Source of the DNA: Alviniconcha marisindica
Taxonomy: Eukaryota; Mollusca; Gastropoda; Provannidae
NCBI GenBank assembly: GCA_018857735.1
Contig: JABMCL010003896.1
Span: 1 to 64,000, forward strand
Length of the DNA stretch: 64,000 nucleotides
Direction: 5' to 3'
Below are positions 11,409 to 64,000 of this stretch, one piece after another; position 1 is the stretch's first letter; every line of letters starts with the position of its first letter. The translations under genes and the position numbers were made by a program. The notes under the pieces are model-generated. The model was not told the DNA's origin. It made no database searches and worked only from the letters and a program-made list of their open reading frames with translations.

Positions 11409-13783
11409 TCACTCACTCACTCACTCACACACACTTGTACACACTGAAATGATATGCAAGTAGTTTGTATCCCCTATAAAAATCCATTTATGATTGATCC
11501 TTGCAGTAAGAATGCAAATATTATATATATATAAAATTTGATTCTACCTGTTCTTTTCTCTGACAGCCTTTTGCACCTGGCTGATACATCGCTTTCTTCG
11601 CCTGCTGTCCAGTGCAGGATGTAGCGGTCTGCACCCCATCTGCCTCAAAGTGCTGACCCACATTTTGCACACAGCCAAAGTTCGCTCCGTGTACATTTTT
11701 CGCCACCTGATTTCTCAACTGGTTCGGGCTTGTGCAGGTACAGTTTCTTTGGCATTTGGTGCCATCTCAGTCACATGCAGGATTTCCAAGAGCCATCATC
11801 AAACACAGGCTTAGTAGCTTCGTCGTGCCCCTACACCTTAGTTATTTCCAGACTACAAAACCAAGCTTTAGCGAAAGGTCATTAATCTGATCCAGCCTTT
11901 CAAAATGAGTTGGATGGATGCTGGGCCATTTTTTCAATGCAGCTTATTTTCCAACGGGATCTTCCATTATTAGATTTTGTTTTTTTTCTCGTAAAATCAG
12001 ATTGCCCATTATTTTTGCATCAGAAATTAGACTCCGTAATCAGAAATTAGAAATGTTTATAAAAATGTCATTAAAAGGTGTTTTAAACATGCACCTGCAT
12101 GACTGCGTGATGAAAACTTTGTTTGCTGATTTCTCACAGTGAGATGCTGTGGTAGTGGTGACTGCAAATTGATACAATAACAAGTTATGAGAAGTTCCAT
12201 GATTTGTGAAGCGATGACCACCTCAGCTTGTCTTTAACCCTCTGTAGCCAGTCTTTTGTGAGAAGTTCCATGGTTTGCACAGCGATGACCACCTCAGCTT
12301 GTTTCTGTCCACAGACATGGTGATGACCAGCGAGAAACTGCTGACTGCCACACACAGCCAGACCTCCCAGGCTGAGCTCCGGACCCTTCAGGTGGATCTG
12401 GACTTGGTGAAGCAGAGCCTTGCTGACCCCTCCAACACTCTGTCTGTTAGTGGCTTCTTCTTTCTGGTCTTGGCCTAGACTGCAGGAGACATACCTGCAG
12501 CTTACATGTATGCAGGGTTAGGGTTTGTAAAGTCTGCCAAAAAATAAAAATAAAACAGGTGCCTTTTTGCAGGTCTTGGAAATTCCGGAATTTCATGATA
12601 ATAATCAAGATGTAACCTGCAGCAAGGAGATATAGAAAAGAAAACCTGCAAGATCAAATGATAGTTGATGTAGGAAAATACTAAATTTGTTTAGCTTTGA
12701 AGGTGAGTGTTTAATTTGTTTGGGAAATGATAACTAAAGTTTTGGAAAAGTTGGGGAATTTGAAGTAAAAATACTGCGTGGACCCTGCTTGCAGTGTCAT
12801 TTTGTTGTTGTTGTGGAGGTAGAGTTTCCATCCAAGTGATTGGACACGTTTAGTAATTTGTTTTAATGCTGCATGTGTGTTGTGTTGCCGTTCTGAGTCT
12901 GAACAGCTGAATAGCACGTAAGTTTGCTTTTCATTTCAATCAGTCAGTTTACAGTTGAGTGATATTTCTAAGCACCTCACTTTAGGAACTGATGTGCTCA
13001 TTTTGTACAAGTAAAATTTCAGAATAATATGTGTGGTATTTATATGTTGGTGTATCCTAAAAAGTTAACTTTGTGATAAGGCTTTGTTTTTCTTAAACCA
13101 TCTGTTGCTCAGACCTACTGACAATCATAATCAATGACTTTACAGTGAGTGACTGTTTACATGTAAACTTTCATTATTATGTGATTGCTGTGTACATTTA
13201 ACCCCTTCACTGCTGCAGCCTGTAAAATTTCCTGCCTGAAAGATGGACGGACACGCCTACAAACAATATAGTTTCCGGTCCACACATCTACTTTCAGTGC
13301 TATGCATTTTGATGAAAATCTTTTTACATTCCAGCGCTAAAAAGAAAACAAAAAAGCTTAAGGGTTTCAAATTTCGCACTTTTAGTGGTTGTTTTCAAGT
13401 AACATTGCGGCATTGAAGGGGTTAAACCTTCATTATTATGTGGTCTATGTGATGTACTTGTTGGGTGGCTTGTAACGTTACTGAAAGAGTTGGCCTGTGA
13501 GTCGGAAAGGGAACGGTAACAAGTCATGTGTACCTCTTTGTTCAAGGCTTATCTCTTGCTGCTCAGGTACATTTGCTTTCACTTTGACATTCAGCCACAC
13601 ACAGTCCCATCCCTTAAAAAAACAACTGTGTGGCAATATCCACTTTTAGCCCTGTTGGTTCGCTATCCTCAAATGGTTTGAGGATGCATGTGTGCTTGTG
13701 CATAGCACTGGCATAGCATGGAATGAACTGGTATGTGGATATGCCATCGTAGTGCGCACTTCAAGTTATTCCATACACACACA

Positions 13784-13835
<52 letters not shown>

Positions 13836-15261: not shown

Positions 15262-15303
<42 letters not shown>

Positions 15304-18300
15304 GTGTGTGTGTGTGTGTGGATGGAATGAACTTGAAGTGTGCACTACGTTGGCATATCCACATCAGTTCATTCTGTACTATGCCAGTGTATACACACAC
15401 AAATGCATTCTCATACCATTTGAGGACTGCGAACTGACTGAACTGACAGTGGATATTGCTGTCTCTCCCCCCCATTCTGACTTGACAGAAACTTTGTGTT
15501 GCATGCACCTTCTTGGGTGGTGACTAAGAATGCTCTTTGAAAGCCTGCTTTGTCACCTTTAGTGAGAATTACATTTATTGATGCTGATTCAGATGAACTT
15601 GACCCTAAGGTCACAGGGTACTTTGAAGAAAAGTAATGAAAGTTGTAATGTATTTTTCCTGTTTTCAGTGTGAGTCATCTGAGTCTTTGCCCTCATTGCT
15701 GTGTTTAATTTGTCTCCTTTTTCTCTCTCTTTATCTGTATTAGTATGCTCGCAGATGTATGATACAGATCAGTGTCATACACATTTGAATTCATTGCGGT
15801 TTGTGTGTGTGTGTATGTGTGTTTGTTTTTCCATATAATACTTTATGTACATTGTTTTTGGTAGGACTGTACTCTACATGTGTATAGAATATTGTAGTTA
15901 GGTTAATATGTATCATGTGAGTGCTCAGGGCATTGATGAGCGCATGATAAATGTACGTTTTTATTTTTAGTATATAACTTAGTTCTGTCTTAGACTGGAG
16001 AATGATGCCAGTCTGTGTTCCATTGCAGGAAGCAGTTCTGTCTTAGACTGGAGAATTATGTCAGTCTGTGTTTCCATTGCAGGAAGCTGTTGCTGACGTT
16101 TGTAGGGGAAATCCATCAGTTTGACATCCTCAGTGCCCACTTGCTGTATGGAACCGTCCTGGTTTACATCGAGCTGGGGGACTTTGAACTGAAAATGGTC
16201 AGTCAGAATGCATGCCCACACAAACCCCAAAGTCTGCCCTTGTAGTAGGAAGCAACGTTCTGTATTCATTTATTCAGCACATGCCGTCCTCGGTGAGCTG
16301 TAAAAATAGCATGACCTTCAAATTTGCATTAAAAGCACACAAGGTGATGGGCCATTGTGTTGACCTTGAGAGAAGGCTTGATCCCTGCTGGTTTTGCAAC
16401 AACAACAACAACAACAACCACAACCAAAGATTTATTGTTTTTGTTTTAACACTTTTCCTACTTGTGCAATATCATACTCTTAGTTTATGAACAGCTTTCT
16501 TGTAAGATGCATTTTTTTTTCTTCTCCAGATCTCTCTGCAGGTGCTGACTCGGCTCCTGAAGGTGCATGGCATAGTCTTCTCCACCAACGTGAAAGAGCG
16601 CCTGATTTCCGTTGTCATAGCGATGGTGGAGTTGCTTGTCTCTGGCTGCAAGGAACTGGAACGAGAGTAAGCTTGAAAATATTACATGTTTGTAGTTTAC
16701 TGTTTACAGTTGTGTGATGAAATTTATGGTTTTTAAGAAGAAACAAATGTAAGGGAAAGACTGGATGTATCTCAAGAGCTTGTTTTCTTTCTTCTTCTGG
16801 TGCACTTTATGTGGGTGAGCTTGATGCTATAACTGGTATAAGTAATGCATCCAGTGGTATAATAAAATTTCAGTCACAGTAAGATCCAAACACATAAAAG
16901 GTTCAAAGAATGCTATTTATTAGGACAAAACACAACTTGCAAATTTTCAGGGTATTTCCCTTTATTAAGCTACAAATTTACACTTTAACAACAGATAAAT
17001 GGAGAATGAGATGTAGAACTAAGACACTTACCTGCTTTTGGAGGAGCTACAACAGGTAAATGGAGAATGAGATGTAGAACTAAGACACTTACCTGCTTTT
17101 GGAGGAGCTACAACAGGTAAATGGAGAATGAGATGTAGAACTAAGACACTTACCTGCTTTTGGAGGAGCTACAACAGGTAAATGAGAATGAGTGTAGAAC
17201 TAAGACACTTACCTGCTTTTGGAGGAGCTACAACAGGTAAATGGAGAATGAGATGTAGAACTAAGACACTTACCTGCTTTTGGAGGAGCTACAACGGGTA
17301 GATGGAGAATGAGATGTAGAACTAAGACACTTACCTGCTTTTGGAGGAGCTACAACAGGTAGATGGAGAATGAGATGTAGAACTAAGACACTTACCTGCT
17401 TTTGGAGGAGCTACAACAGGTAATGGAGAATGAGATGTAGAACTAAGACACTTACCTGCTTTTGGAGGAGCTACAACGGTAATGGAGAATGAGATGTAGA
17501 ACTAAGACACTACCTGCTTTTGGAGGAGCTACAACAGGTAAATGGAGAATGAGCTGTAGAACTAAGACACTTACCTGCTTTTGGAGGAGCTACAACAGGT
17601 AGATGGAGAATGAGCTGTAGAACTAAGACACTTACCTGCTTTTGGAGGAGCTACAACAGGTAAATGGAGAATGAGCTGTAGAACTAAGACACTTACCTGC
17701 TTTTGGAGGAGCTACAACAGGTAAATGGAGAATGAGCTGTAGAACTAAGACACTTACCTGCTTTTGGAGGAGCTACAACAGGTAATGGAGAATGAGCTGT
17801 AGAACTAAGACACTTACCTGCTTTTGGAGGAGCTACAACAGGTAAATGGAGAATGAGCTGTAGAACTAAGACACTTACCTGCTTTTGGAGGAGCTACAAC
17901 AGGTAGATGGAGAATGAGATGTAGAACTAAGACACTTACCTGCTTTTGGAGGAGCTACAACGGGTAGATGGAGAATGAGATGTAGAACTAAGACACTTAC
18001 CTGCTTTTGGAGGAGCTACAACGGGTAGATGGAGAATGAGATGTAGAACTAAGACACTTAATTTGGAGGAGCTACAACGGGTAGATGGAGAATGAGATGT
18101 AGAACTAAGACACATACCTGCATTTGGAGGAGCTACAACAGGTAAATGGAGAATGAGATGTAGAACTAAGACACTTACCTGCTTTTGGAGGAGCTACAAC
18201 AGGTAAATGGAGAATGAGATGTAGAACTAAGACACTTACCTGCTTTTGGAGGAGCTACAACAGGTAAATGGAGAATGAGATGTAGAACTAAGACACTTAC

Positions 18301-19077: not shown

Positions 19078-19116
<39 letters not shown>

Positions 19117-19385
19117 GTGTGTGTGTGTGTCTACTTGCATGTGGGTGCATGTGTGAGTGCATATGCATGCACGCTTGCAAGTATATATGTATCATTGTAT
19201 CTGCATGCATGTGTGTGTGTGTGTGAGTGTGCATGGGTGTGTACATGTGCACACACGTGGGTGTGTGTGTGGGTGTCTGCTTGCATGTGGGTGCATGTGT
19301 GAGTGCATATGCATGCATGCTTGCAAGTGTATATGTATCATTGTATCTGCATGCATGGGTGTGCATGGGTGTGTACATGTGCACA

Positions 19386-19427
<42 letters not shown>

Positions 19428-51881: not shown

Positions 51882-51912
<31 letters not shown>

Positions 51913-51977
51913 TGCATGTATACACGCACACACACACGCACGCATGTATACACACGCACGCATGTATACACACACAT

Positions 51978-52054
<77 letters not shown>

Positions 52055-52108
52055 CATGTATACACAAACATGCACACACAAACACACACACACACACACA
52101 CATGCATG

Positions 52109-52144
<36 letters not shown>

Positions 52145-55861: not shown

Positions 55862-55897
<36 letters not shown>

Positions 55898-58443: not shown

Positions 58444-58474
<31 letters not shown>

Positions 58475-61400
58475 ACACATACACACACACACACACCGTG
58501 TGTATATCTTCTCATTGCCCAAAATGCTCTTTGTCAGTCTGTGCCTGTGATCTCTCTGGGCTTAATCTTTCATCTATCCTCACCCAGGTTTGTGGTTGTA
58601 TGATTGAGACTGAAGACTGCTGGTTGAAATAAGATGTTTATTAGATGAACATAGTTTGCCCTTTTTTTCTCCGGCCTGTCCCAGCACCAGCGTATGTCAG
58701 CGATCCACAGTACAAGGCTGTGAACGGGTTTGCGTCGCGCATCCCCCAGGACATTCTAGCCCAGGCCAGCTTTAACTGCAAGGCCTACACACGCGCCCTC
58801 ATGCACTTTGAACAGTTCATCTCCATCACCAAGCAGGATCTCCACGAACATCTGGATTTCCTGCAGGTATGCCGGCAGTGGGGCTGTTAGTGTTAAGCCA
58901 GCCATGCTTGAACATGAACTTTTTCTCAGAGACGGCACAAGGGGAAGTGATCGTGTGTTGGACACGGTCACCACCTGTTTAAAGGTGTTGGGCTGAATTG
59001 AACTGCCTCTGTTCCCCTGTGGGTTGGTTTTGTTCCCATGGGGATGTTTTTCTCCCCATGTCGATGGTTTGGTTTGGTTCCGATGGGGATGGTTTTGTTC
59101 CCATGGGGATGGTTTTGTTCCCATGCAGTTGGTTTCGTTCCCATGCAGTTGGTTGGTGTTGTTCCCATGGTGATGGTTGGTTTTGTTCCGATGGGGATGG
59201 TTTTGTTCCCATGGGGTTGGTTTTATTCCCATGCAGTTGGTTTTGTTCCCATGCAGTTGGTTGGTGTTGTTCCCATGGTGATGGTTGGTTTTGTTCCCAT
59301 GGGGGTGGTTTTGTTCCCATGTGGATGGTTTTATTCCCATGCAGTTGGTTTTGTTCCCATGGGGATGGTTGGTTTTGTTCCCATGGGGTTGGTATTGTTC
59401 CCCTGGGGACGGTTTTGTTCCCATGCAGATGGTTTTGTTCCCATGGGGATGGTTTGATTCCCATACAGTTGGTTTTGTTCCCGTAGAGTTGGTTTTGTTC
59501 CCATGGGGATGGTTTTCAGGCAGTGAGCCCCAGTCTCTGATATTTTGTAATGTAATGTAAAAGAGTATTTGTAAGGTGCTTGCACCTAATGTGAGCCTAA
59601 AGCGCACAGTACGAAAACAATAGGGTTGACAGAATCTTTACAGCACCAAGAGCACAGTGAAATCCTACTAGTTACATGAACAAACACACTACAACTTTTC
59701 AGTCAGCATCTCTCTTATTACTGCCATCTCTCTCATTACATGCACGCACGCACGCATGCACACATGCATGCACAGATCTTGTTTTAGAACGCTAGCAGTC
59801 ATTCTTGTTTCAGATTTTTTATTTGAAATGAGTGCTTGCTGTTTGTTATTCTGTTTGTTGTTGTTGTTTGGCTGTATGTTATTCTGTTTGTTGTTGTTTA
59901 GTTGTATGTTATTATGTTGATGTTTGGCTGTATGTTTGTTGTTTTCGTTTGGCTGTATGTTATTGTGTTTGTTCTTGTTTGGCAGTATGCTATTCTGTTT
60001 GTTGTTGTTATTTGGCTGTATGTTATTCTGTTTGTTGTTGTTTGGCTGTATGTTCTTCTGTTTGTTGTTGTGTGGCTGTTATTCTGTTTGTTGTTGTTGT
60101 TTGGCTGTATGCTATTATGTTTGTTGTTGTTGTTTGGCTGTATTTTATTCTGTTTGTTGTTGTTTGGCTGTATGTTATTCTGTTGTTGTTTGGCTGCATG
60201 TTATTCTGTTTGTTCTTGTTGTGTGGCTGTATGCTATTCTGTTTGTTCTTGTTTGGCTGTTATTCTGTTTTTTGTTGTTGTTTGGCTGTATGTTATTCTC
60301 TTTGTTGTTGTTTGTGACTGTATGTTATTCTGTTTGTTGTGTGGCTGTATGTTATTCTGTCTGTTGTTTTTTGGTTGTATGTTTGTTGTTGTTGTTTGGC
60401 TGTATGTTATTCTGTTTGTTGTTGTGTGCTGTATGTTATTCTGTTTGTTGTTGTTTGGCTGTGTGTTATTCTGTTTGTAGTTTTTTGGTTGTATATGTGT
60501 TGTTGTTTGGCTGTATGTCATTCTGTTTGTTGTTGTTTGGCTGTATGTTATTCTGTTTGTTGCTGTGTGGCTGTATGTTATTCTGTTTGTTGTTGTTTGG
60601 CTGTATGTTATTCTGTTTGTTGTTGGGGCTGTATGTTTGTTGTTTTTGTGTGGCAGTATGTTATTCTGTTTGTTGTTTTTGGCTGTATGTTTGTTGTTTG
60701 TTGTTTGGCTGTATGTTATTCTGTTTTTTTGTTGTTTGGCTGATATGTTATTCTGTTTGTTTTTTGCTGTATGTTTGTTGTTGGGCTGTATGTTATTCTG
60801 TTGTTTTTGCTGTATGTTTTTGTTTGGGTGGCGTATGTTATTCTGTTGTTTTTTGCTGTTTTGTTTGTTGCTGGTTGGCTGTATTTATTCTGTTGTTGTT
60901 TTGGCTGTATGTTTTCTGTTTGTTGTTGTGTGGCTGTATGTTATTCTGTTTGTTGTTGTGTGGCTGTATGTTATTCAGTTGTTTTTTGGCTGTATGTTTG
61001 TTGTTTTTGTCTGGCAGTATGTTATTCTGTTGTTTTTTGACTGTGTTTGTTGTTGGGTGGCTGTATGTTATTCTGTTGTTTTTTGACTGTATGTTTGTTG
61101 TTGGGTGGCTGTATGTTATTCTGTTGTTTTTTGACTGTATGTTTGTTGTTGGGTGGCTGTATGTTATTCTGTTGTTTTTTGACTGTATGTTTGTTGTTGG
61201 GTGGCTGTATGTTATTCTGTTGTTTTTTGACTGTATGTTTGTTGTTGGTGGCTGTATGTTATTCTGTTGTTTTTTGGCTGTATGTTTGTTGTTGTCGTTT
61301 GGCGTAGCGCCTGTACGACTGTCTGAATGAGCCAGACGGAGTGCTGGGAGTGGCGGCTGTGAGACAGACCCAGTCCACAATGATGGAGGAGATTCTTGTG

Positions 61401-62010
61401 CATGAAAGTCTGGGTATGATCTCTCTGTTCTGTTTGCCTACTGTGTGAGAGTTAAAAAAATAATAATATTAGGTCGAAGTGTAGAAAAAAACAAGCCAAT
61501 ATTTAACTGTTGAGGCATTATATTTAGATCTGGAAGACCTTAAACACAGTAAAGCTGATGGACGTGTGAGAGTTGTAAGAAAGAGCAAATGGTCTCTCTT
61601 GTCGGTTTCTTCTTTTGTTTTCTATGTTCTAAAAGTTCCACAGAAATGCAGTTCACTGAAAAGATTTATGAACTTGCCGACTCTGGTGTGACTGAAATAC
61701 AACACCTGCTACGTGGTGTAACAATAACGCGTCATATTTCTTACATTGTGCTCCATTCATATACACATTTTTTTTAACCATGCGTGTGTTTGGTCCATTG
61801 CTGAATGGATTGTCATTTGCTGTGACACGCATCACTGCGTGCGTGAAACTGGAACAGGTCACCAGCAGGACGCCCAGGCGTGCTACGAGCGAGCTCTTCA
61901 GGTGTCGCCCAGTGAGCTGTTTGGCCGCACCAGGGCTTCGTCCGCAGTCTGATGGAGATGGGCCAGCTGAACATGGCCTTGCTGCACACCACTGGCATCC
62001 TGGCCGACAA
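8329..62010 (+). CDS. ATR: ATR serine/threonine-protein kinase, N-terminal two thirds, 44 exons, 3' end beyond window
   Basis: ATR is the PI3K-like kinase that senses RPA-coated single-stranded DNA with its partner ATRIP and phosphorylates CHK1 in the nucleus during replication stress. Joining 44 exons gives about 1,744 codons that align collinearly with vertebrate ATR as I recall it. Landmarks include MLSLPW (exon 14), NELLLRLS (exon 27), PRLLGVLAFFDAQL (exon 29), FKDKS..CRAWNCFVR (exon 31), FHEIYFLPDLPEL (exon 33), EPVVSQLVSV (exon 35), CLGELGALDPGR (exon 36), LWRRFPEHFQEIL (exon 38), VALYLLPHVMVQALL (exon 40) and CKAYTRALMHFEQFI (exon 42). These cover the HEAT solenoid, the UME region (exons 28–31) and the start of FAT. 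Kinase and FATC domains are not in the window. Exon phases agree at all junctions except 22/23; exon 44 has an internal one-base frameshift. The start ATG is the first in-frame Met that fits exon 2 phase. Other PIKK members fit worse. Confidence 0.95.
8761..8952. repeat. SINE-like fragment followed by (CA)n, intron 1
   Basis: TAATAATAATAAAGAACATT then AGAGCACCCATCTACCACAG, a motif that recurs near 41640–41700 before another CA tract, then interrupted (CA)n from 8836. The shared order in two introns suggests an interspersed repeat with an adjoining CA tail. Confidence 0.45.
9147..9244 (+). CDS. ATR: ATR exon 2
   Basis: Residues about 11–44, including AIVELVDNFLLDLDN, which matches the ATR N-terminal region where vertebrates have CQFIDRILTDVN. 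Acceptor ACCAAG is weak and GT-rich upstream; donor GTAAGT is strong. Leaves phase 1 (G). Confidence 0.8.
9476..9652 (+). CDS. ATR: ATR exon 3
   Basis: Residues about 44–103. SSLQLCEFFVGNNADIFLQ matches the vertebrate LLDFIQHIMKSSPLMFV stretch. Acceptor TTTTTAG follows a GT-rich tract, donor GTAAGC. Phase 1 in and 1 out. The C-terminal third is low-complexity and Pro-rich, probably a loop. Confidence 0.85.
9802..10294. mobile_element. hAT-like MITE, intron 3
   Basis: Perfect 19-bp terminal inverted repeats, CAGAGCCTCCGCTAGACTG at 9802–9820 and its inverse ending 10294. Inner parts also contain inverted CCGGTACC-type words. No coding capacity. Ends beginning CAGAG are typical of hAT elements, but no clear 8-bp target duplication is visible. 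Confidence 0.65.
11325..11435. repeat. (CA)n then (CACT)n microsatellite, intron 3
   Basis: About 35 uninterrupted CA units followed by five to six CACT units. The rest of intron 3 outside the MITE is AT-rich unique sequence. Confidence 0.9.
11567..11737 (+). CDS. ATR: ATR exon 4
   Basis: Residues about 103–160. FCTWLIHRFLRLLSSAGCSG aligns with vertebrate FSNWIITRLLRIAATPSC. It forms part of the N-terminal HEAT repeats that bind ATRIP. Acceptor CTGACAG, donor GTACAG; phase 1 on both sides. Confidence 0.92.
12183..12314 (+). repeat. Duplicated acceptor-proximal segment before exon 5
   Basis: GAGAAGTTCCATGATTTGTG...GACCACCTCAGCTTGTCT at 12189–12234 is repeated at 12259–12304 directly before the exon 5 acceptor. 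Two copies, about 70 bp apart; the upstream copy ends in CTCTGTAG, a decoy acceptor. Confidence 0.75.
12315..12445 (+). CDS. ATR: ATR exon 5
   Basis: Residues about 160–203, DMVMTSEKLLTATHSQ onward, helical and amphipathic, collinear with the vertebrate VVMSRFLSQLDEHMG segment. Acceptor TCCACAG, donor GTTAGT (non-consensus +3). A 60-bp stretch just upstream of the acceptor is present twice (see repeat at 12183–12314). Confidence 0.8.
13198..13425. mobile_element. Foldback element family B (TTAACCCC ends), intron 5
   Basis: Left end TTAACCCCTTCACTGCTGCA, right end GGCATTGAAGGGGTTAA. A related element lies at 48369–48598 in the opposite orientation (shared words such as AATTTC.AA and the TGCTATGC/GCATAG block). 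Flanks on both sides carry CATTATTATGTG, possibly a duplicated target. Confidence 0.55.
13632..13888. mobile_element. Foldback element family E with CA core, copy 1 (intron 5)
   Basis: About 51-bp imperfect terminal inverted repeats (left includes CTTTTAGCCCTGTTGGTT, right AGGGCTAAAAG) around a hairpin segment and a (CA)n tract at 13783–13835. A second copy lies in the opposite orientation at 15190–15460. Confidence 0.7.
14006..14091 (+). CDS. ATR: ATR exon 6
   Basis: Residues about 204–232: EIQGCDSVREASLGFDDPGH and on. Phase 0 in, leaves AT (phase 2), donor GTAAGT. Similarity to vertebrate ATR is weak here; the call rests on a good acceptor (TTTTTCAG), donor, phase and position. The exon lies between two inverted copies of a foldback element. 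Confidence 0.7.
14110..15190 (+). repeat. ~50-bp minisatellite, intron 6
   Basis: Around 20 copies of a unit reading roughly TGGTACATATGATACCCCTA then CCCCCACCCTTGCCTTCTGC and ACTGTTTGTG, beginning just after the exon 6 donor. The ORFs on both strands here are by-products of the repeat. Confidence 0.9.
15190..15460. mobile_element. Foldback element family E with GT core, copy 2 (intron 6)
   Basis: Same terminal inverted repeats as copy 1 (left CTTTTAGCCCAGTTGGTT, right ending GTGGATATTGC) with the microsatellite on the left as (GT)n, so it is inverted relative to copy 1. Exon 6 lies between the two. Confidence 0.7.
15978..16090 (+). repeat. Two-copy duplication of the exon 7 acceptor
   Basis: TTCTGTCTTAGACTGGAGAA...CCATTGCAG|GAAGC occurs twice, 54 bp apart (acceptors at 16029 and 16082). 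Only the second continues into exon 7. Confidence 0.9.
16083..16197 (+). CDS. ATR: ATR exon 7
   Basis: Residues about 232–270. LLYGTVLVYIELGDFELKM aligns with vertebrate IGCVLLEYGSPKIKSL. Acceptor CATTGCAG, donor GTCAGT. The acceptor and first exon bases are duplicated 54 bp upstream as a decoy. Confidence 0.9.
16530..16666 (+). CDS. ATR: ATR exon 8
   Basis: Residues about 271–316. ISLQVLTRLLKVHGIVF and LISVVIAMVELLVSG are HEAT-type helices matching vertebrate AISFLTELFQLGG and following. Acceptor TTCTCCAG with a T-rich tract, donor GTAAGC; leaves GA (phase 2). Confidence 0.92.
16985..18310 (+). repeat. ~60-bp minisatellite, intron 8
   Basis: About 22 copies of a unit containing GACACTTACCTGCTTTTGGA, GGAGCTACAACAGGTAAATG and GAGAATGAGATGTAGAACTA with few differences. 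Each unit carries AGGTAAGT, a consensus 5' splice site, on the minus strand, and CAGGTAAAT on the plus strand. It is not joined to an exon. Confidence 0.95.
18495..18775 (+). repeat. Four-copy repeat of the exon 9 acceptor
   Basis: Units of about 85 bp: ATTCTGGATTTCTAGGGAGG-type acceptors at roughly 18504, 18592, 18676 and 18760, each followed by GGAGGCTG. Only the last leads into exon 9; the others continue into intronic GACGATCATGATTGTTGG. Confidence 0.85.
18761..19079 (+). CDS. ATR: ATR exon 9
   Basis: Residues about 316–422, the longest exon in the window (319 nt). LATATLRTLVLRLLCYALDR and IVLRSVGRVSVEQLASLLLA are HEAT helices matching the vertebrate LLKAALCHLLQYFLKFVP region. Acceptor TTTCCAG. 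The donor is the first GT of a (GT)n microsatellite. Three degenerate copies of the acceptor lie upstream. Confidence 0.92.
19080..19640. repeat. GT microsatellite plus ~150-bp higher-order repeat, intron 9
   Basis: (GT)n begins at the exon 9 donor itself. A longer unit (CTTGCATGTGGGTGCATGTG ... CATTGTATCTGCATGCATG ... GTACATGTGCACACACGTG) is present three times. Confidence 0.85.
19640..19850 (+). repeat. ~20-bp repeat running into exon 10 acceptor
   Basis: About ten copies of TGTTCAGTTTGGTATG-like units; the final one, GTGTTCAG|TTTGCAG, provides the exon 10 acceptor and first exon bases. Confidence 0.75.
19839..20020 (+). CDS. ATR: ATR exon 10
   Basis: Residues about 423–483. Starts FAAPLLSRLVMLEAVSAA (cf. 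vertebrate LLGPLYAALKMES), then a Pro/Gln/Thr-rich disordered linker ending SRLKRKR, like the basic linker of vertebrate ATR. Acceptor GTTCAG; the nearby TTTGCAG would put a stop in frame. Donor GTTTGA is poor but required for phase with exon 11. Confidence 0.8.
20169..20188. repeat. Poly-G tract, intron 10
   Basis: Uninterrupted G run of about 18. Similar long G runs occur at 28283–28308, 39361–39392 and 56812–56827, and C runs at 55716–55742 and 58442–58460. The rest of intron 10 is unique AT-rich sequence. Confidence 0.9.
20688..20790 (+). CDS. ATR: ATR exon 11
   Basis: Residues about 483–517. ESKKKRTQLFQRLLDRAYEI matches the vertebrate QKSILWSALKQKAESLQI segment. Acceptor TTTACAG, donor GTAATG; leaves phase 0. 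Confidence 0.88.
20820..21020. repeat. CATG/CA-rich tract, intron 11
   Basis: Degenerate CA and CATGCA repeats; no coding signal despite open frames on both strands. Confidence 0.6.
21412..21503 (+). CDS. ATR: ATR exon 12
   Basis: Residues about 518–548: TACVPALAAGSLLCEVAARC, matching vertebrate PVIEMLEGIAVVLQLTALC. Acceptor GTTGCAG, donor GTATGT running into a GT microsatellite. Leaves GG (phase 2). Confidence 0.85.
21505..21965. repeat. GT/GTAT-rich compound microsatellite, intron 12
   Basis: Starts at the exon 12 donor and includes a ~16-bp GTGTGTGTTGTGATGT repeat at 21560–21665. Confidence 0.85.
22075..22241 (+). CDS. ATR: ATR exon 13
   Basis: Residues about 548–603: VEDYLSPGMIQKVCACFCGY and VALEHIIRSLSTLLACHG, matching the vertebrate LDFYTKVLKSCRSLLESVQ region. 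Acceptor ATTTCAG, donor GTATGA; leaves phase 1. Confidence 0.9.
23040..23375 (+). repeat. ~95-bp repeat running into exon 14 acceptor
   Basis: Units with TTTGTAGTTTGTTTAAAGCC, ACTTGGTTGTTCC and CATACCTGATCA; the last, GGTTGTTTCAG|ATCTGATCAC, appears to be a diverged member carrying the real exon 14 acceptor. Three to four degenerate copies. Confidence 0.6.
23361..23428 (+). CDS. ATR: ATR exon 14
   Basis: Residues about 604–626. LQDFAWMLSLPWLL matches the conserved vertebrate LEDLCGMLSLPWIY. Acceptor TTTCAG, donor GTTTGT (weak). Phase 1 in, 0 out. Confidence 0.88.
23865..24670 (+). repeat. 77-bp array spanning the exon 15 acceptor
   Basis: About 11 copies of TACAGTTTTATAAAATGACT, CCCTTTTGTTATAG| then AATGATACCAGTTGGCAAGA and CCTGCGA. 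Each has the acceptor plus some 30 bases of exon 15; the last copy is the true exon. Confidence 0.95.
24638..24719 (+). CDS. ATR: ATR exon 15
   Basis: Residues about 627–653: NDTSWQDLRPSQAQAVSRVS and VLADQM. It is the 3'-most member of a 77-bp array that repeats its acceptor and first ~30 bases. Acceptor GTTATAG, donor GTAAGG; phase 0 in, 1 out. Upstream copies read into a stop after about 16 codons. Confidence 0.82.
24955..26430 (+). repeat. ~103-bp dimeric array spanning the exon 16 acceptor
   Basis: About 14 dimers with halves GTGATTTGTCATTGGCTGAC ... TTTGCCCTGTGCAGAG and TTGTGATTTGTCTGATTGAC ... TTTGCCTGTGCAAAATTGGG. The acceptor TTTGCCCTGTGCAG and exon word GTGATTTGTC recur; the last copy enters exon 16. 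Confidence 0.95.
26413..26507 (+). CDS. ATR: ATR exon 16
   Basis: Residues about 654–685. VICQCVRGLALAPKECAPSW then RVHVFTLAL matches vertebrate CVFLLTLFPRRIFLEWRTAVYNWAL. Acceptor CTGTGCAG is the last copy in a 1.4-kb array; donor GTAAGG. Confidence 0.9.
26860..27100 (+). repeat. Direct duplication, intron 16
   Basis: TGGTCGTACACAGCCTTGCC...ATACTGTCTGTGTTGATA occurs at about 26863–26952 and 27008–27097. Confidence 0.85.
27100..27790 (+). repeat. ~65-bp minisatellite, intron 16
   Basis: About ten copies of AGGTGCTAGTGTGTAGTGTT, GGGATGCTTGGTGTTTGTTC, AGGGACTTGTGTGTTGATGT. It ends 20 bp before the exon 17 acceptor without clearly including it. Confidence 0.9.
27811..27914 (+). CDS. ATR: ATR exon 17
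   Basis: Residues about 686–720: SDSRQEVKQAAISVFPLFIF, a HEAT helix pair matching vertebrate SSHEVIRASCVSGFFILL. Acceptor GTTGCAG. Donor GTGTGT at 27915 is required; the nearby GTAACT would frame-shift into a stop in exon 18. Confidence 0.9.
28690..29395 (+). repeat. ~31-bp minisatellite, intron 17
   Basis: About 22 copies of GACTGTAAACTGTTCACTTT then GACAGGTATGG. The 27915–28690 part of the intron has a poly-G tract (28283–28308) and otherwise unique sequence. Confidence 0.9.
29509..29582 (+). CDS. ATR: ATR exon 18
   Basis: Residues about 720–744: SGIKERSEPVFQLTWLECSK. Acceptor TTTTCAG, donor GTAAAC; phase 2 in, 1 out. Compared with the vertebrate KKEFASILGQLVCTL region the match is modest. 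Confidence 0.8.
29705..29765 (+). mobile_element. SINE-like tail
   Basis: CCCTGATATAACCGCACTGG, TTGACTGGGTGTGAAACACC, then TTACTTACTTACT. The same block occurs at 33305–33366 (+), 33540–33590 (inverted) and partly at 38690–38740. The rest of intron 18 has a TTTGTTTGTGGTTAATTGA repeat at 29860–30030. Confidence 0.6.
30238..30325 (+). repeat. 21-bp minisatellite, intron 18
   Basis: Four to five copies of CGCACACGCCGCAGAGGAA. Confidence 0.85.
30975..31064 (+). CDS. ATR: ATR exon 19
   Basis: Residues about 745–774. PKLFAPFLSLLKSEDVDVRK matches vertebrate KPFLFLLKKKIPSPVKLA. Acceptor TTTCAG at 30974; the CCCCCAG at 30951 would break frame. The vertebrate stretch between exons 18 and 19 is about 40 residues longer, so a small exon in 29583–30974 may be missed. 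Confidence 0.88.
31641..31865. mobile_element. MITE with 20-bp inverted ends and palindromic core, intron 19
   Basis: Ends GTATCATTGGCGGGAGCTGC (31646) and GCAGCTCCCGCCAATGATA (to 31860) flanked by CATTC on both sides, a likely 5-bp target duplication. The core repeats TTTTGTCGTGACAAAA-like palindromes about seven times. No ORF. Confidence 0.8.
31966..32098 (+). CDS. ATR: ATR exon 20
   Basis: Residues about 775–819. MVRRLRSIFCHIP and LDACLRAVEDKDFHVRMLFS match vertebrate LLNLMEDPDKDVRVAFSG. Acceptor GTTCAG, donor GTGAGT; leaves TC (phase 2). Confidence 0.93.
32205..32692. repeat. (GT)n with GTTCCTCT interruptions, intron 20
   Basis: Long GT tract regularly broken by TTCCTCTGTG. Long ORFs on both strands are by-products. 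The rest of intron 20 has SINE-like tails and a purine-rich stretch at 33118–33162. Confidence 0.9.
33300..33366 (+). mobile_element. SINE-like tail, intron 20
   Basis: CACCCTGATATAACTGCACT, GGTTGACTGAGC, then AATTTACTTACTTACT, matching the copy at 29705. An inverted copy follows at 33540–33590 (ACTTGGTGTTTTACACCCAG). Confidence 0.6.
33675..33851 (+). CDS. ATR: ATR exon 21
   Basis: Residues about 819–878, ending LHETVLITVGQLAR, the counterpart of vertebrate LKDTLILTTGDIGRAA. Acceptor ACTGCAG, donor GTATGG. The donor end is repeated twice more in intron 21. Confidence 0.93.
33840..34065 (+). repeat. Three-copy repeat of the exon 21 donor
   Basis: AGCTAGCGAG|GTATGG...GACTGAAGTTATGGCTTCTG in units of about 78 bp: true donor at 33852, copies near 33931 and 34008. 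Confidence 0.9.
34210..34425 (+). repeat. Four-copy repeat of the exon 22 acceptor
   Basis: Units of about 46–56 bp: GGGTGACATGTTTCAAACTG, TGTGACCAG|GTGTGCTGAG, GGTGAC. The last copy enters exon 22. Confidence 0.95.
34409..34505 (+). CDS. ATR: ATR exon 22
   Basis: Residues about 878–910. CAEGDLLLSTVIMLLENRLS matches vertebrate AAKGDLVPFALLHLLHCLLS. Acceptor GACCAG is the last of four tandem copies; donor GTGAAC leaves phase 0, which conflicts by one base with exon 23. Confidence 0.93.
34510..35070. repeat. CA tracts and CACCTGGGGACA minisatellite, intron 22
   Basis: CACACCTGGGGACACACACA-type units mixed with pure (CA)n at 34672–34710 and 34962–35010, with TTCATTCACACACC recurring from the exon 22 donor side. 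Confidence 0.8.
35152..35235. repeat. Perfect 38-bp inverted repeat, 8-nt loop, before exon 23
   Basis: Left arm 35152–35189 (starts TTCATTCACTACTGC) and right arm 35198–35235 are exact reverse complements; loop GTTTTACT. It sits 38 bp before the exon 23 acceptor. Confidence 0.97.
35274..35380 (+). CDS. ATR: ATR exon 23
   Basis: Residues about 911–946. VKQLVSMLQLQAVAAYKQVA matches vertebrate IRALVAAKSVKLQSFFSQYK. Acceptor ATGTGCAG, donor GTGAGT. The coding frame needs phase 1 in but exon 22 gives phase 0, so one base appears missing here or a microexon is unseen. Confidence 0.85.
35529..35645 (+). CDS. ATR: ATR exon 24
   Basis: Residues about 947–985: FLVEAMLAAQ, then VANTFGFPDVKTFLQ, matching vertebrate FLVESLHSSQ and IANVFDFPDLNRFL. 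Acceptor TTTTCAG, donor GTCAGA; phase 0 both sides. Confidence 0.95.
35920..36033. mobile_element. Foldback element family A, short copy, intron 24
   Basis: GAATCAATGCATAAGGGAGT TAATTAG at left, TTAATTAACTCCCTTGCGGG GTGATTC at right. The left flank CTGAAACAGAATGAG matches the flank of the 4760 copy, so the family is longer than the inverted core. Confidence 0.6.
36080..37800 (+). repeat. 28–29-bp minisatellite, intron 24
   Basis: About 60 copies of GTGAAGTCCCTGTGTACCTT then CCTGTTACT/GTT. Copy differences are mostly one- or two-base gaps in the CTGTTNNTGTG part. Not joined to an exon. Confidence 0.95.
37909..38004 (+). CDS. ATR: ATR exon 25
   Basis: Residues about 986–1017. KHLLPSLVHRASAEASSLIR matches vertebrate QVLLPDLAAKASPAASALIR. 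Acceptor GTTTCAG, donor GTTAGT; phase 0 both sides. Confidence 0.95.
38005..38940 (+). other. Intron 25, little seen
   Basis: AT-rich unique sequence with a partial SINE-like tail (CTGTCCTGTTTGACCGGGCT ... GTTACTTACTTAC, 38690–38740). Confidence 0.5.
38941..39042 (+). CDS. ATR: ATR exon 26
   Basis: Residues about 1018–1051. NRRKLITNNIKDIFSFLVCH and ELETALDYLQ match vertebrate NRREILINNFKYIFSHLVC and ELERALHYL. Acceptor GTTTCAG, donor GTAAGA. Confidence 0.96.
39361..39392. repeat. Long G tract, intron 26
   Basis: About 30 bases, almost all G. The rest of intron 26 is AT-rich with a GT microsatellite at 39934–39995 just before exon 27. Confidence 0.9.
40008..40103 (+). CDS. ATR: ATR exon 27
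   Basis: Residues about 1052–1083. KETDFTLGSLLRMDFQRVHN then ELLLRLS matches vertebrate ETEIELGSLLRQDFQGLHNELLLRI. Acceptor TTTGCAG, donor GTCTGA. The donor end recurs three more times downstream. Confidence 0.96.
40060..40530 (+). repeat. Four-copy repeat of the exon 27 3' end and donor
   Basis: CTTCGTCTTAGCACCTGTGA AAACCAG|GTCTGAAACAG at 40077, then related blocks near 40230, 40356 and 40477, each followed by TACCTGGGACTTNTTGGACA and ACTGAACTGATACCTGAAGG. Units are about 120–155 bp. Confidence 0.9.
41285..41362 (+). CDS. ATR: ATR exon 28 (start of UME region)
   Basis: Residues about 1084–1109. VFSGLQMLSMNDEQYKGPTI matches vertebrate VFNGLSILASFASSDDPYQGP. Acceptor TTCTAG, donor GTACAT; phase 0 both sides. 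Confidence 0.94.
41640..42270. repeat. Very long (CA)n/(ACC) tract, intron 28
   Basis: About 560 bp of CA broken by CCA and AACA. The preceding ATAGACCGACTAACAGATCT and CAAGCACCCATCTATACCAC resemble the SINE-like fragment in intron 1. ORFs of up to 246 codons here are spurious. Confidence 0.9.
42490..42582 (+). CDS. ATR: ATR exon 29 (UME region)
   Basis: Residues about 1110–1140. AAYLEPRLLGVLAFFDAQLV matches vertebrate ADYLQPKLLGILAFFNMQLL. The exon ends CTG followed by GCGAGT; to keep Lys-Leu-Ala-Leu-Glu with exon 30 the intron must be GC–AG. Confidence 0.95.
42560..42770 (+). repeat. Degenerate repeat of the exon 29 donor end
   Basis: GCCATGGCTGACAAAAAACT|GGCGAG is followed by GCCATGGGTGACAGGAAAGT|GGCAGA (42619) and TCATGGGTGACAGGAAAGTG|GCAAAT (42697), each with GCTATTAACCCTTTG after it. 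Units about 80 bp. Confidence 0.75.
43268..43353 (+). CDS. ATR: ATR exon 30 (UME region)
   Basis: Residues about 1141–1168. ALESLISIVLLMGSKHISSI matches vertebrate ALNSLMSLMKLMGPKHVSSV. Acceptor GCGCAG, donor GTAGGT; leaves AG (phase 2). Donor end repeated twice downstream. Confidence 0.95.
43315..43605 (+). repeat. Three-copy repeat of the exon 30 3' end and donor
   Basis: GTCACAAAGTTGTCAACACT CTCAG|GTAGGT at 43330, 43449 and 43562, separated by GATGGTCATCTTATGATAAT. Unit about 115–120 bp. Confidence 0.95.
44105..44660 (+). repeat. Seven-copy repeat of exon 31 5' half
   Basis: GTTTCAG|GCTGGGACTCCAGTTC AAAGACAAGTCGGTGATGGA then CTGTGCCTGTGTATGTGTAT in units of about 80–89 bp; exon starts at 44121, 44206, 44291, 44373, 44456, 44536 and 44622. 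Three internal copies have TTCAAG for TTCAGG, which still leaves an AG. Confidence 0.95.
44622..44693 (+). CDS. ATR: ATR exon 31 (end of UME region)
   Basis: Residues about 1169–1192. LGLQFKDKSVMEVSCRAWNC then FVR matches vertebrate GLRFKDDFPELCCRAWDCFVR. It is the last of seven tandem copies of its own 5' half. Donor GTTACG is weak. Confidence 0.95.
44875..47445 (+). repeat. 2.5-kb array of the exon 32 acceptor (44–48-bp units)
   Basis: Left half: CTTGTTTCAGTCTGTTGGTG GTTAGCTTAAGGTTGTTG. Right half from about 46080: GGTTGTTTCAGTCTGGAGAG GGGTGTTAGCTGAAGATTG. About 54 units in all. The last TTTCAG|TCTGGAG enters exon 32. Confidence 0.96.
47439..47558 (+). CDS. ATR: ATR exon 32
   Basis: Residues about 1192–1232. 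Leu-rich helices LGQMLFQIVATLLPLLLQMP and IINYMVVDNR, the counterpart of vertebrate LLSHVIVALLPLIHIQP and IFHYLIIENR. Acceptor GTTTCAG is the final copy of a 2.5-kb array; donor GTAAAC. Confidence 0.95.
47575..48030. repeat. (CA)n and CATGCA tract, intron 32
   Basis: Compound microsatellite with a pure CA run at about 47703–47772; ORFs on both strands are spurious. Confidence 0.9.
48191..48295 (+). CDS. ATR: ATR exon 33
   Basis: Residues about 1232–1267. LQKYFHEIYFLPDLPELADA matches vertebrate VQDFLHEIYFLPDHPELKKI. Acceptor ATTACAG, donor GTGTGT; phase 2 both sides. Confidence 0.96.
48369..48598. mobile_element. Foldback element family B, intron 33
   Basis: Ends TTAACCCTTTCACTGCCGTG and GGGGCAATGAAGGGGTTAA; inner AAGTTTTTTGGTTTGC and CATAGAAAGTAAATTTGTG correspond in reverse to the 13198 copy. 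Confidence 0.6.
48964..49078 (+). CDS. ATR: ATR exon 34
   Basis: Residues about 1267–1306. DLQTQLVYCIKGASHESLDV then RCHALSRL matches vertebrate DLQTTLQLSMKAIQHENVDVRIHALTSL. Acceptor GTTCAG, donor GTAAGA. Confidence 0.96.
49085..49265 (+). repeat. TGTCTGTC/GTGCTAGTCTG repeat, intron 34
   Basis: Simple repeat starting at the exon 34 donor. A pure (CA)n run follows at 49550–49604; the rest of the intron is unique. Confidence 0.85.
50036..50104 (+). CDS. ATR: ATR exon 35
   Basis: Residues about 1307–1329. ESTEPVVSQLVSV matches vertebrate SETVEPIISQLVTV. Acceptor GTTTCAG, donor GTGAGT; phase 0 both sides. Confidence 0.95.
50335..51300 (+). repeat. ~19-bp minisatellite, intron 35
   Basis: About 45 copies of AGGTAACTCAGAGGGATTC. 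Every unit contains CAGGTAACT, a near-consensus donor on the plus strand. Confidence 0.95.
51331..51419 (+). CDS. ATR: ATR exon 36
   Basis: Residues about 1330–1358. LLHGCQESDSKMQCLYGQCL then GELGALDPGR matches vertebrate LLKGCQDANSQARLLCGECLGELGAIDPGR. Acceptor TGTGCAG, donor GTGGGT. Confidence 0.97.
51770..52225. repeat. (CA)n/CATGCATGTA tract, intron 36
   Basis: Pure CA runs joined by CATGCATGTATACAC; ends 20 bp before the exon 37 acceptor. Confidence 0.9.
52247..52382 (+). CDS. ATR: ATR exon 37
   Basis: Residues about 1359–1404. TVEDDNFVVGLINEVVKAFL matches vertebrate GVEDSSFAYGLLMELTRAYL. Acceptor TTCCAG, donor GTGAGT, followed by tandem copies of the donor end. Confidence 0.95.
52370..52850 (+). 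repeat. ~36-bp array spanning the exon 37 donor
   Basis: About 13 units of GTTCAG|GTGAGTTATGC AGACTGAAGTGCAGT; the first, AGAGTTCAG|GTGAGTTA, is the true donor. Confidence 0.95.
53174..53322 (+). CDS. ATR: ATR exon 38
   Basis: Residues about 1405–1453. CSAFALQELLQIYKIE and KLWRRFPEHFQEILAPLLNT match vertebrate DSAAYAIQELLSIYDC and QLWRRFPEHVREILEPHLNT. Acceptor GTTGCAG, donor GTGAAT. Confidence 0.97.
53430..54385. repeat. Purine-rich GACAGATGGACAGAGAGAG minisatellite, intron 38
   Basis: About 950 bp with the + strand nearly all purine, built from GACAGATGGACAGAGAGAGT TGGGAACAAAGACAGGTA. ORFs on both strands (up to 410 codons) result from the skewed composition. Confidence 0.95.
54405..54590 (+). 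mobile_element. Interspersed repeat family C, copy 1
   Basis: ACTTGTGGTTTTAGCCTTGC ... GTGTGGCACTCACATTCTCC, TTTGAATAGAATAAAGAAGT. A second copy follows family A at 56505–56670. Function unknown. Confidence 0.55.
54790..54904 (+). CDS. ATR: ATR exon 39
   Basis: Residues about 1454–1492. PKPIYGSRKGSNLLDWVSNW then TTYLVSK matches vertebrate KKPIYLSKLGSNFAEWSASWAGYLITK. Acceptor GTTACAG, donor GTAAGA. Its 3' end and donor begin a 45-bp array that stays in frame. Confidence 0.96.
54868..55630 (+). repeat. 45-bp array spanning the exon 39 donor, in frame
   Basis: About 17 units of GTCAGCAACTGGACCACTTA CCTTGTGTCAAAG|GTAAGACAGCTG. The first donor (54905) is the true one. Because 45 is divisible by 3, reading through adds VRQLVSNWTTYLVSK repeats with no stop until about 55270. 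Confidence 0.97.
55630..55945. repeat. C-rich and (CA)n tracts, intron 39
   Basis: Poly-C around 55716–55742 and 55902–55916, (CA)n at 55862–55894. Minus-strand ORFs are spurious. Confidence 0.8.
56073..56210 (+). CDS. ATR: ATR exon 40 (start of FAT domain)
   Basis: Residues about 1493–1538. VKHGVASQVFQACTATKRHN then LQVALYLLPHVMVQALLDG matches vertebrate VRHDLASKIFTCCSIMMKHDFKVTIYLLPHILVYVLLG. Acceptor CCTGCAG, donor GTCAGA. Confidence 0.97.
56361..56501 (+). mobile_element. Foldback element family A, right half, intron 40
   Basis: TTGAGGATGTACCTCTGGTG ... CATGCCAGGTGAGAGTTACC ... GAGCACTAATTAACTCCCTT GTGTGTTGA. Followed directly by a family C copy at 56505–56670 (CTTTGAATGGAATAAAGAAG). 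Confidence 0.6.
56851..57855 (+). repeat. 105-bp ten-copy array spanning the exon 41 acceptor
   Basis: Copies start exactly every 105 bp at 56857, 56962, 57067, 57172, 57277, 57382, 57487, 57592, 57697 and 57802. Each has GGTTGCAG|GTGTACAATGAGGTGATGG and about 55 bases of exon. Copies 1–9 read ACC TGA where exon 41 reads ACC CGT. The minus strand is open for 366 codons as a by-product. Confidence 0.98.
57802..57979 (+). CDS. ATR: ATR exon 41 (FAT domain)
   Basis: Residues about 1539–1597. VYNEVMEVVNQAKKAD, then MSAQTIFSVLDYLTKWRTH, matching vertebrate VYAEIMAVLKHDD and LSTQTVFSMLDHLTQWARH. The exon is the tenth copy of a 105-bp array; only this copy lacks the TGA. Donor GTGAGC (57980) is preferred over GTAGAG at 57973; both keep phase. 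Confidence 0.95.
57980..58684 (+). other. Intron 41: C/CA tract, otherwise unique
   Basis: CA–poly-C–CA block at 58405–58498 and a GAGAGAGG stretch near 58225–58250. No other feature seen. Confidence 0.5.
58685..58866 (+). CDS. ATR: ATR exon 42 (FAT domain)
   Basis: Residues about 1597–1658. RIPQDILAQASFNCKAYTRA, LMHFEQFI and LHEHLDFLQ match vertebrate LIPQDTLAVASFRSKAYTRAVMHFESFI and IQEHLGFLQ. Acceptor GTCCCAG, donor GTATGC. Confidence 0.98.
59000..59515 (+). repeat. ~20-bp minisatellite, intron 42
   Basis: About 25 copies of GGTTTTGTTCCCATGGGGAT with GCAGTTGG variants. ORFs on both strands are by-products. Confidence 0.95.
59835..61300 (+). repeat. ~30-bp minisatellite, intron 42
   Basis: About 48 copies of TTTGTTGTTGTTTGGCTGTA TGTTATTCTG. 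It ends within 10 bases of the exon 43 acceptor (TCGTTTGGCGTAG), whose GTTTGGC may derive from the unit. A 468-codon plus-strand ORF here is spurious. Confidence 0.95.
61308..61413 (+). CDS. ATR: ATR exon 43 (FAT domain)
   Basis: Residues about 1659–1693. RLYDCLNEPDGVLGVAAVRQ and EEILVHESLG match vertebrate KLYAAMHEPDGVAGVSAIRK and EQILEHESLG. Acceptor GGCGTAG lies at the end of a long TG/TTG repeat; donor GTATGA. Confidence 0.97.
61858..62010 (+). CDS. ATR: ATR exon 44 (FAT domain), one-base frameshift
   Basis: Residues about 1693–1744. HQQDAQACYERALQVSP then, one frame over, GFVRSLMEMGQLNMALLHTT, matching vertebrate RDATACYDRAIQLEP and GVVKSMLGLGQL. A one-base deletion lies between about 61907 and 61932; unshifted reading stops at 61950. 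Length 153 where 154 is expected. The weak acceptor GGAACAG lacks a pyrimidine tract. Donor GTATGT starts the terminal 83-bp array. The gene continues past base 64000. Confidence 0.9.
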
Positions 62011-64000
62011 GTATGTGTGGGATGGTGGGAGAGTGTTGGAGGTTATGGGGTTAACATGGCCTTGCTGCACACCACTGGCATCCTGGCCGACAAGTATGTG
62101 TGGGATGGTGGGAGAGTGTTGGAGGTTATGGGGTTAACATGGCCTTGCTGCACACCACTGGCATCCTGGCCGACAAGTATGTGTGTGGTGGTGGGAGAGT
62201 GTTGGAGGTTATGGGGTTAACATGGCCTTGCTGCACACCACTGGCATCCTGGCCGACAAGTATGTGTGTGATGGTGGGAGAGTGTTGGAGGTTATGGGGT
62301 TAACATGGCCTTGCTGCACACCACTGGCATCCTGGCCGACAAGTATGTGTGTGGTGGTGGGAGAGTGTTGGAGGTTATGGGGTTAACATGGCCTTGCTGC
62401 ACACCACTGGCATCCTGGCTGAGAAGTATGTGTGTGATGGTGGGAGAGTGTTGGAGGTTATGGGGTTAACATGGCCTTGCTGCATCACCACTGGCATCCT
62501 GGCCGACAAGTATGTGTGTGGATGGTGGGAGAGTGTTGGAGGTTATGGGGTTAACATGGCCTTGCTGCACACCACTGGCATCCTGGCTGACAAGTATGTG
62601 TGTGATGGTGGGAGAGTGTTGGAGGTTATGGGGTTAACATGGCCTTGCTGCATACCACTGGCATCCTGGCCGACAAGTATGTGTGTGGATGGTGGGAGAG
62701 TGTTGGAGGTTATGGGGTTAACATGGCCTTGCTGCACACCACTGGCATCCTGGCCGACAAGTATGTGTGTGATGGTGGGAGAGTGTTGGAGGTTATGGGG
62801 TTAACATGGCCTTGCTGCATACCACTGGCATCCTGGCCGACAAGTATGTGTGTGATGGTGGGAGAGTGTTGGAGGTTATGGGGTTAACATGGCCTTGCTG
62901 CATACCACTGGCATCCTGGCCGACAAGTATGTGTGGATGGTGGGAGAGTGTTGGAGGTTATGGGGTTAAAATGGCCTTGCTGACACCACGCATCCTGGCC
63001 GACAAGTATGTGTGTGATGGTGGGAGAGTGTTGGAGGTTATGGGGTTAACATGGCCTTGCTGCACACCACTGGCATCCTGGCCGACAAGTATGTGTGTGA
63101 TGGTGGGAGAGTGTTGGAGGTTATAGGGTTAACATGGCCTTGCTGCACACCACTGGCATCCTGGCCGACAAGTATGTGTGTGATGGTGGGAGAGTGTTGG
63201 AGGTTATGTGGGGTTAACATAGCCTTGCTGCACACCACTGGCATCCTGGCCTGAAAGTATGTGTGTGATGGTGGGAGAGTGTTGGAGGTTATGGGGTTAA
63301 CATGGCCTTGCTGCACACCACTGGCATCCTGGCTGATAGTAGTATGTGTGTGATGGTGGGAGAGTGTTGGAGGTTATGGGGTTAACATGGCCTTGCTGCA
63401 TACCACTGGCATCCTGGCCGACAAGTATGGTGTGGATGGTGGGAGAGTGTTGGAGGTTATGGGGTTAACATGGCCTTGCTGCACACCACTGGCATCCTGG
63501 CCGACAAGTATGTGTGGGTGGTGGGAGAGTGTTGGAGGTTATGGGGTTAACATGGCCTTGCTGCATACCACTGGCATCCTGGCCGACAAGTATGTGTGGG
63601 TGGTGGGAGAGTGTTGGAGGTTATGGGGTTAACATGGCCTTGCTGCACACCACTGGCATCCTGGCCGACAAGTATGTGTGTGATGGTGGGAGAGTGTTGG
63701 AGGTTATGGGGTTAACATGGCCTTGCTGCATACCACTGGCATCCTGGCCGACAAGTATGTGTGTGATGGTGGGAGAGTGTTGGAGGTTATGGGGTTAACA
63801 TGGCCTTGCTGCACACCACTGGCATCCTGGCTGACAAGTATGTGTGTGATGGTGGGAGAGTGTTGGAGGTTATGGGGTTAACATGGCTTTGCTGCATACC
63901 ACTGGCATCCTGGCTGAGAAGTATGTGTGTGATGGTGGGAGAGTGTTGGAGGTTATGGGGTTAACATGGCTTTGCTGCATACCACTGGCATCCTGGCTGA
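61960..64000 (+). repeat. 83-bp array spanning the exon 44 donor, to window end
   Basis: About 24 copies of AACATGGCCTTGCTGCACAC, CACTGGCATCCTGGCCGACA A|GTATGTGTGTGATGG, TGGGAGAGTGTTGGAGGTTA TGGGGTT. The first 50 bases are exon 44 sequence and the remaining 33 intron. The true donor is the first, 62011. The array continues past the window. Confidence 0.97.

Follow-up and report, generated by a model that had tools for sequence, protein, structure and literature searches.

Junction-spanning tandem repeats of the amphioxus mirage type in an ATR gene of the gastropod Alviniconcha marisindica

A stretch of 64,000 nucleotides from the provannid gastropod Alviniconcha marisindica (GenBank assembly GCA_018857735.1, contig JABMCL010003896.1, positions 1 to 64,000), called here the window, carries an ATR gene on the + strand from 8329 on, in which tandem arrays repeatedly use a unit that includes a splice junction and part of the neighbouring exon. 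The gene was modelled with 45 coding exons. The start-codon exon (8329-8360) was located with the protein of Babylonia; the remaining exons, E1 to E44, occupy 9147-62010 in a splice-aware model curated by eye, and the gene continues beyond the end of the window. The model frame is open as far as E44 (61858-62010), inside which both stop codons of the model lie; compared with Babylonia ATR, this exon contains a frameshift of one base, which may reflect a sequencing or assembly error. A collinear series of matches to human ATR runs through the window, and residues 91-1725 aligned in one piece with human residues 97-1733 at 33% identity. One translated frame of 50001-64000 matched PDB chains named ATR. 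Among six database matches listed, the closest protein was Babylonia areolata ATR, at 68% identity over the full 1725-residue query, scores in this ranking having been computed only for the candidates with the most words in common. At the end of E29, the frame-preserving reading takes a GC donor (42582), which makes the intron behind it a GC-AG intron.

Repetition of junctions was assessed by aligning each junction segment (30 exon and 25 intron bases, simple repeats masked) to the remainder of its own intron, with the alignment required to extend 5 bases or more beyond the junction in both directions. Of the 89 junctions 87 were tested, the start exon having been found later, and each segment was compared with all other introns of the gene as a control (3741 comparisons). 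Sixteen of the 87 junctions scored 40-110 against their own intron, donors (7: E17, E21, E27, E30, E37, E39 and E44) and acceptors (9: E6, E8, E9, E14, E15, E22, E31, E32 and E41) being affected about equally. None of the 3741 control comparisons reached a score of 34, the best being 31 and 30, and two further junctions scored 30-31, no better than these. In an unmasked first version 15 of the 16 stood out, E9 being absent, and one control scored 55 (E8 donor, TG run). Since the junction segments match their own intron and not the others, the repeats derive from the adjoining junction. A mobile-element origin was rejected because the segments match no other intron of the gene at threshold, and within this gene no single family dispersed over many introns, as introners would be, was found (0/3741).

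All arrays lie on the + strand. At the acceptor of E6 (16083), 2.1 copies of a 53-bp unit (15981-16091) take in 9 exon bases. The acceptor of E8 (18761) ends 3.5 copies of an 83-89-bp unit (18470-18768, 8 exon bases by TRF, Tandem Repeats Finder), that of E9 (19839) 12 aligned copies of a 16-bp unit (19640-19842, 4 exon bases by TRF), and that of E14 (24638) 12 copies of a 67-bp unit (23837-24664, 27 exon bases). Upstream of E15 (26413), 28 aligned copies of a 52-bp unit, arranged in 103-bp pairs, fill 24961-26431 and include 19 exon bases. Acceptor arrays are also found at E22 (34409; 34283-34423, 3.1 copies of 46 bp, 15 exon bases) and E31 (44622; 44099-44657, 6.7 copies of 82 bp, 36 exon bases). 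The E32 acceptor (47439) closes the array with most copies, 51 aligned copies of a 44-47-bp unit with 7 exon bases (44871-47445), and the E41 acceptor (57802) lies in 9.7 copies of a 105-bp unit reaching 65 bases into the exon (56851-57866).

Donor arrays begin with E17 (28711), where 20.5 copies of a 31-bp unit with 17 exon bases occupy 28695-29323. The E21 donor (33851) is followed by 3 copies of a 76-bp unit (33842-34066, 10 exon bases) and the E30 donor (43353) by 2.4 copies of a 117-bp unit (43317-43591, 37 exon bases); these two share introns 21 and 30 with the E22 and E31 acceptor arrays, respectively, and in both introns the units at the two ends differ. At E27 (40103) a 125-bp unit with 44 exon bases aligns 4 times (40060-40604), and at E37 (52382) a 33-bp unit with 10 exon bases aligns 11 times (52373-52853). 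The E39 donor (54904) stands at the head of 17 copies of a 45-bp unit with 34 exon bases (54871-55628), and the E44 donor (62010) at the head of 24 copies of an 83-bp unit with 41 exon bases, which extend to the window end (61970-63997). A seventeenth, diverged case is found at the GC donor of E29: counting the exon end, about 3 copies of a 77-bp unit with 21 exon bases lie at 42562-42767, and the array fell short of the score demanded in the main test. The array at E43 stops at the acceptor and holds no exon bases.

The 16 arrays thus occupy 14 introns, 13 whole and the cut one after E44. Their units are 16-125 bp long and particular to their locus, with no match in another intron at threshold, and the repeat includes 4-65 exon bases in the 14 arrays with TRF coordinates across the junction and 10 and 44 in the two whose first copy TRF omitted. 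In 4 of the 10 arrays with at least seven copies (E9, E17, E32 and E44) the distal copy is less consensus-like than the inner ones. An earlier note, made from the sequence alone, had listed 15 clear junction-spanning cases, and all of them hold on an inferred mapping of its exon numbers, in which E6, E8, E9, E14 and E15 correspond to its exons 7, 9, 10, 15 and 16 (the start exon counted) and the numbers agree from E21 on, as if E17 had been missed; the E17 donor array is the one addition. Its three weaker cases divided: the exon 29 donor was borne out by a gapped alignment including 21 exon bases, but at exons 5 and 14 (E4 and E13 acceptors) the repeats end before the splice site.

The copies other than the one attached to the exon body are decoy sites. 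Over the 15 arrays that have two or more decoys (all but E6, with its single decoy), GT or AG was retained in 173 of 196 decoys, or in 167 of 191 by wrap-around alignment; in E15 (14/27) and E31 (3/6) about half of the dinucleotides survive. Its conservation was not above that of random neighbouring columns in these arrays (summed 14.16 against 14.06 expected, one-sided P 0.44), and selection for decoys was rejected on the ground that GT/AG columns are conserved like their neighbours. When scored with a site-strength model built from the array-free junctions (36 donors and 34 acceptors), 105 of 179 locatable decoys equalled or outscored the true site. Use of 169 of the 179 would lead to a frameshift or a stop, as expected from the proposal that the frame always needs the exon-attached copy; that proposal fails for the other 10, which are in frame and open (one in E6, three in E9 and six of the 16 in E39). 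Unit length is a multiple of three in 4 of 16 arrays, so that nothing suggests selection of copy number for its effect on the frame. On the coding side, 138 of 180 residues at array-junction exon edges are identical to Babylonia, against 568 of 840 at other junctions (counted over 12 residues per edge, without the E1 acceptor and the two E44 edges). Judged from the sequence, the decoys look like tolerated, unused copies, and the open frame together with the Babylonia homology implies that the exon-attached copy is probably the one used in vivo, with regular splicing.

Repeats are abundant in the introns generally. Random intron segments drawn as often as junctions were repeated at the junction-test score in 156 of 430 cases (36%), so that junctions, at 16/87 (18%), were repeated about half as often (Fisher P 0.001); with length-weighted draws the figure was 44% of 434, and 6 of 870 draws were dropped for falling in introns under 200 bases. 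Fully exonic segments were repeated in 11 of 282 cases, every one in exons carrying junction arrays. At base level junctions are therefore avoided about twofold and exon interiors far more, and the suggestion that arrays in this gene do not shun exon edges has to be qualified, intron interiors being repeated about twice as often as junctions. For counts of whole arrays, TRF arrays of period at least 12 and score at least 80 were taken, dinucleotide-rich ones excluded. This gave 35 arrays covering 21,879 of 49,587 intron bases, of which 14 span a junction by TRF coordinates and 16 when the two with an omitted first copy are added, the diverged E29 array being counted as non-spanning. All 35 lie in the 54.9 kb from E1 on, against no minisatellite of this definition in 1-9146.

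Structures of the same kind are known from amphioxus, where they are called mirages. The name reportedly goes back to a 2002 paper by Canestro. As described in the available parts of the source, mirages are minisatellite-like tandem copies of an exon-intron boundary, 5' or 3', in Adh3 and the globin genes BflGb6 and BflGb9; their units are 10 to 160 bp, many but not all copies carry AG/GT, the authentic copy is attached to the exon, and reverse transcription PCR suggests that splicing is undisturbed (PMC3087553). Homogenised inner copies, with the end copies excepted, and length instability, somatic or between haplotypes, also belong to the type. PGBD5 and, as cited there, TnC also carry them, according to an excerpt of a second paper (PMC3902484). 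In part of a third, amphioxus introns are said to contain complete or partial exons, some with splice sites, beside similar coding exons (PMC2632668, data not shown there). The ATR arrays share with mirages a unit that spans the exon-intron boundary, the involvement of both donors and acceptors, a similar unit range with locus-particular sequence, and the retention of AG/GT in many but not all copies; they are mirages of the amphioxus type. They differ in their gastropod host, in affecting 16 of the 87 tested junctions of a single gene, at up to 51 copies, and in being known here from sequence alone. The belief that no such system had been described was accordingly mistaken, since mirages were already on record.

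Other comparisons are less close. As far as the consulted text of the report goes, intron 18 of human ABCA7 holds a variable number tandem repeat (VNTR) whose 25-bp unit has the exon 18 splice donor as its first bases. It is set apart from the ATR arrays as a single locus that starts at the donor without exon bases, varies in length between people and is linked to disease (PMC5954066). The human FAM20C VNTR and tandem repeats in genes of segmental duplications are boundary repeats that may form introns, and in the excerpted text they are, unlike those of ATR, single cases per gene (PMC2812944). Intron gain by tandem duplication likewise involves a duplication that carries splice sites, but there a new intron is created, whereas the ATR arrays occupy one end of existing introns. 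Rogers (1989) and Zhuo (2007) are said to be the sources for it. Drosophila cases have been reported, in the part of the paper available (PMC2891723). Passages of PMC3862624, PMC12783039, PMC7931591 and PMC2206037 contained nothing relevant. The titles and abstract openings of the open-access matches listed contained no mollusc report of junction-spanning arrays, and what is new, as far as seen, is the mollusc host together with the density within a single gene (16 of 87 junctions).

The arrays, then, are locally derived, include the junction in their unit, leave the coding copy intact and carry decoys that behave neutrally. They are probably best read as the outcome of tolerated, neutral local duplication of short stretches that chanced to include a junction. 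Slippage, end-joining or other repair, or unequal exchange would produce a first tandem duplication, and the same kinds of events would later alter copy number. Selection would purge changes that harm the exon-attached copy and ignore the rest, and the arrays would endure, since splicing and coding would need no other copy than that one. The spliceosome would choose that copy by context, such as exon-side signals and the partner site across the exon, and not by site strength. Of the two forms of selection that the earlier note had entertained, toleration agrees with the intact coding edges and the neutral decoys.

Several results weigh against tolerated neutral duplication as it stands. The true site has a mean rank of 0.70 among its decoys over the 16 arrays (weaker decoys plus half of ties), so that selection may act to some degree on site strength. 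Within decoy units, conservation is slightly higher on the exonic than on the intronic side (P 0.04 by rotation), a weak signal that would fit occasional conversion by the constrained exon copy. Neutrality with a uniform origin also does not predict that 14-16 of 35 arrays span a junction, where a uniform-origin model (one unit per array, array-collapsed gene) expects 4.5-5.8 (P 8e-7 to 6e-4), nor that the 18 non-spanning arrays lie nearer exon edges than under uniform placement (P 0.004). The sense strand of the arrays is also enriched in G and T, with 26 of 35 arrays leaning this way in either skew (P 0.006), and the skews of non-array intron are near zero (GC skew 0.04, AT skew -0.08).

The last three results would be accounted for if exon edges were mutational hotspots, at which a transcription-linked event (polymerase pausing, an R-loop, a nick or microhomology repair) preferentially founds duplications, and this is a tentative alternative with a minority chance of being correct. 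The sense-strand lean hints at a transcription-linked step without proving it, and the 9.1 kb upstream without such arrays points the same way. The excess of spanning arrays persists in all 36 settings of a small-unit model (P 2.4e-5 to 2.1e-3), but a large-unit model gives P 0.008-0.11, with 9 of 36 settings above 0.05. Arrays gather at exon edges, as a moderate and model-dependent effect, and the suspected process that duplicates junctions may be at work in view of the array-level excess over uniform origin, but this excess depends on the definition of the unit, and base-level coverage runs the opposite way. In addition, arrays at edges could survive longer, because deletions running into the exon are purged, and with a single gene examined longer survival and hotspot formation give the same excess.

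It is improbable that the arrays are put to use, whether for splicing robustness, for slowed or regulated ATR splicing or as a supply of alternative exons. Use would agree with the many decoys that equal or outscore the true site and with the six in-frame, open decoys of E39, and it has a human parallel in ABCA7, where the donor-containing VNTR alters splicing and one unit is retained in some transcripts, which are then out of frame, according to the available part of the source (PMC5954066). It is at odds with decoy GT/AG conservation no higher than background, with the loss of about half of the dinucleotides in the E15 and E31 arrays and with the damage to the message expected from 169 of 179 decoys, and the notion of selection using the arrays, the second form entertained earlier, gains nothing from the unit lengths either. 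An assembly artefact, in which copies were wrongly added or collapsed, is very unlikely as an overall explanation. Long arrays are difficult to assemble, and the E44 frameshift means that residual assembly errors may exist, so individual array copy numbers may be wrong; however, copies differ within arrays (TRF matches of 80-98% in the 14 arrays placed across a junction), and every one of 16 arrays, differing in their units, would need to be spurious. That the introns were themselves born by tandem duplication of exon stretches with AG|GT (the Rogers model), the arrays being remains, is hardly credible even though mirages have been proposed as intron sources (PMC3087553, as excerpted) and human boundary repeats as intron formers (PMC2812944, likewise), and it was rejected because none of the 14 arrays that TRF places across a junction overlaps a second junction or reaches both intron ends, and because introns 21 and 30 have different units at their ends.

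Other repeats lie nearby. At 50370-51297 in intron 35, a 19-bp unit whose core resembles a donor (CAG|GTAACT) is repeated about 50 times; this array ends 34 bases before E36 and by eye resembles neither flanking junction. In intron 7, 22 copies of a 61-bp unit (16988-18314) have donor-like motifs on both strands and, by eye, no origin in a neighbouring junction. About 60 copies of a 29-bp unit, fitted also as 58-bp pairs, lie away from any junction in intron 24 (36086-37799), and the intron just before E23 has a perfect 38-nt inverted repeat with an 8-nt loop (35152-35235). Upstream of ATR, 25-1100 and 3698-4780 are inverted arms, each about 1.1 kb long, with a complementarity of 92-100% in successive stretches and a 2.6-kb spacer between them; they may represent an inverted duplication or a mobile element whose ends are long and inverted.

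The arrays extend a little-known curiosity of lancelets to a mollusc, at high density in one checkpoint gene. Sixteen decoy donors follow the true donor of E39 and about 50 decoy acceptors precede that of E32, where about 79% of the 50 outrank the true acceptor; with such numbers and scores, the choice of site probably depends on more than site strength, and the locus is a ready-made substrate for studying how exon context and position decide it. It is also a warning for annotation, where arrays of valid splice sites beside genuine exons would tempt annotators into calling exons and isoforms that do not exist. More broadly, and at rather low probability, a transcription-linked duplication favouring exon edges may act genome-wide in the snail lineage, as in amphioxus, and keep making junctions into arrays of dozens of near-identical splice sites, among which the spliceosome would have to choose the exon-attached one by position and context alone. 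If so, genes with such arrays would amount to experiments by nature on how splice sites are chosen, and would go on supplying new exon edges.

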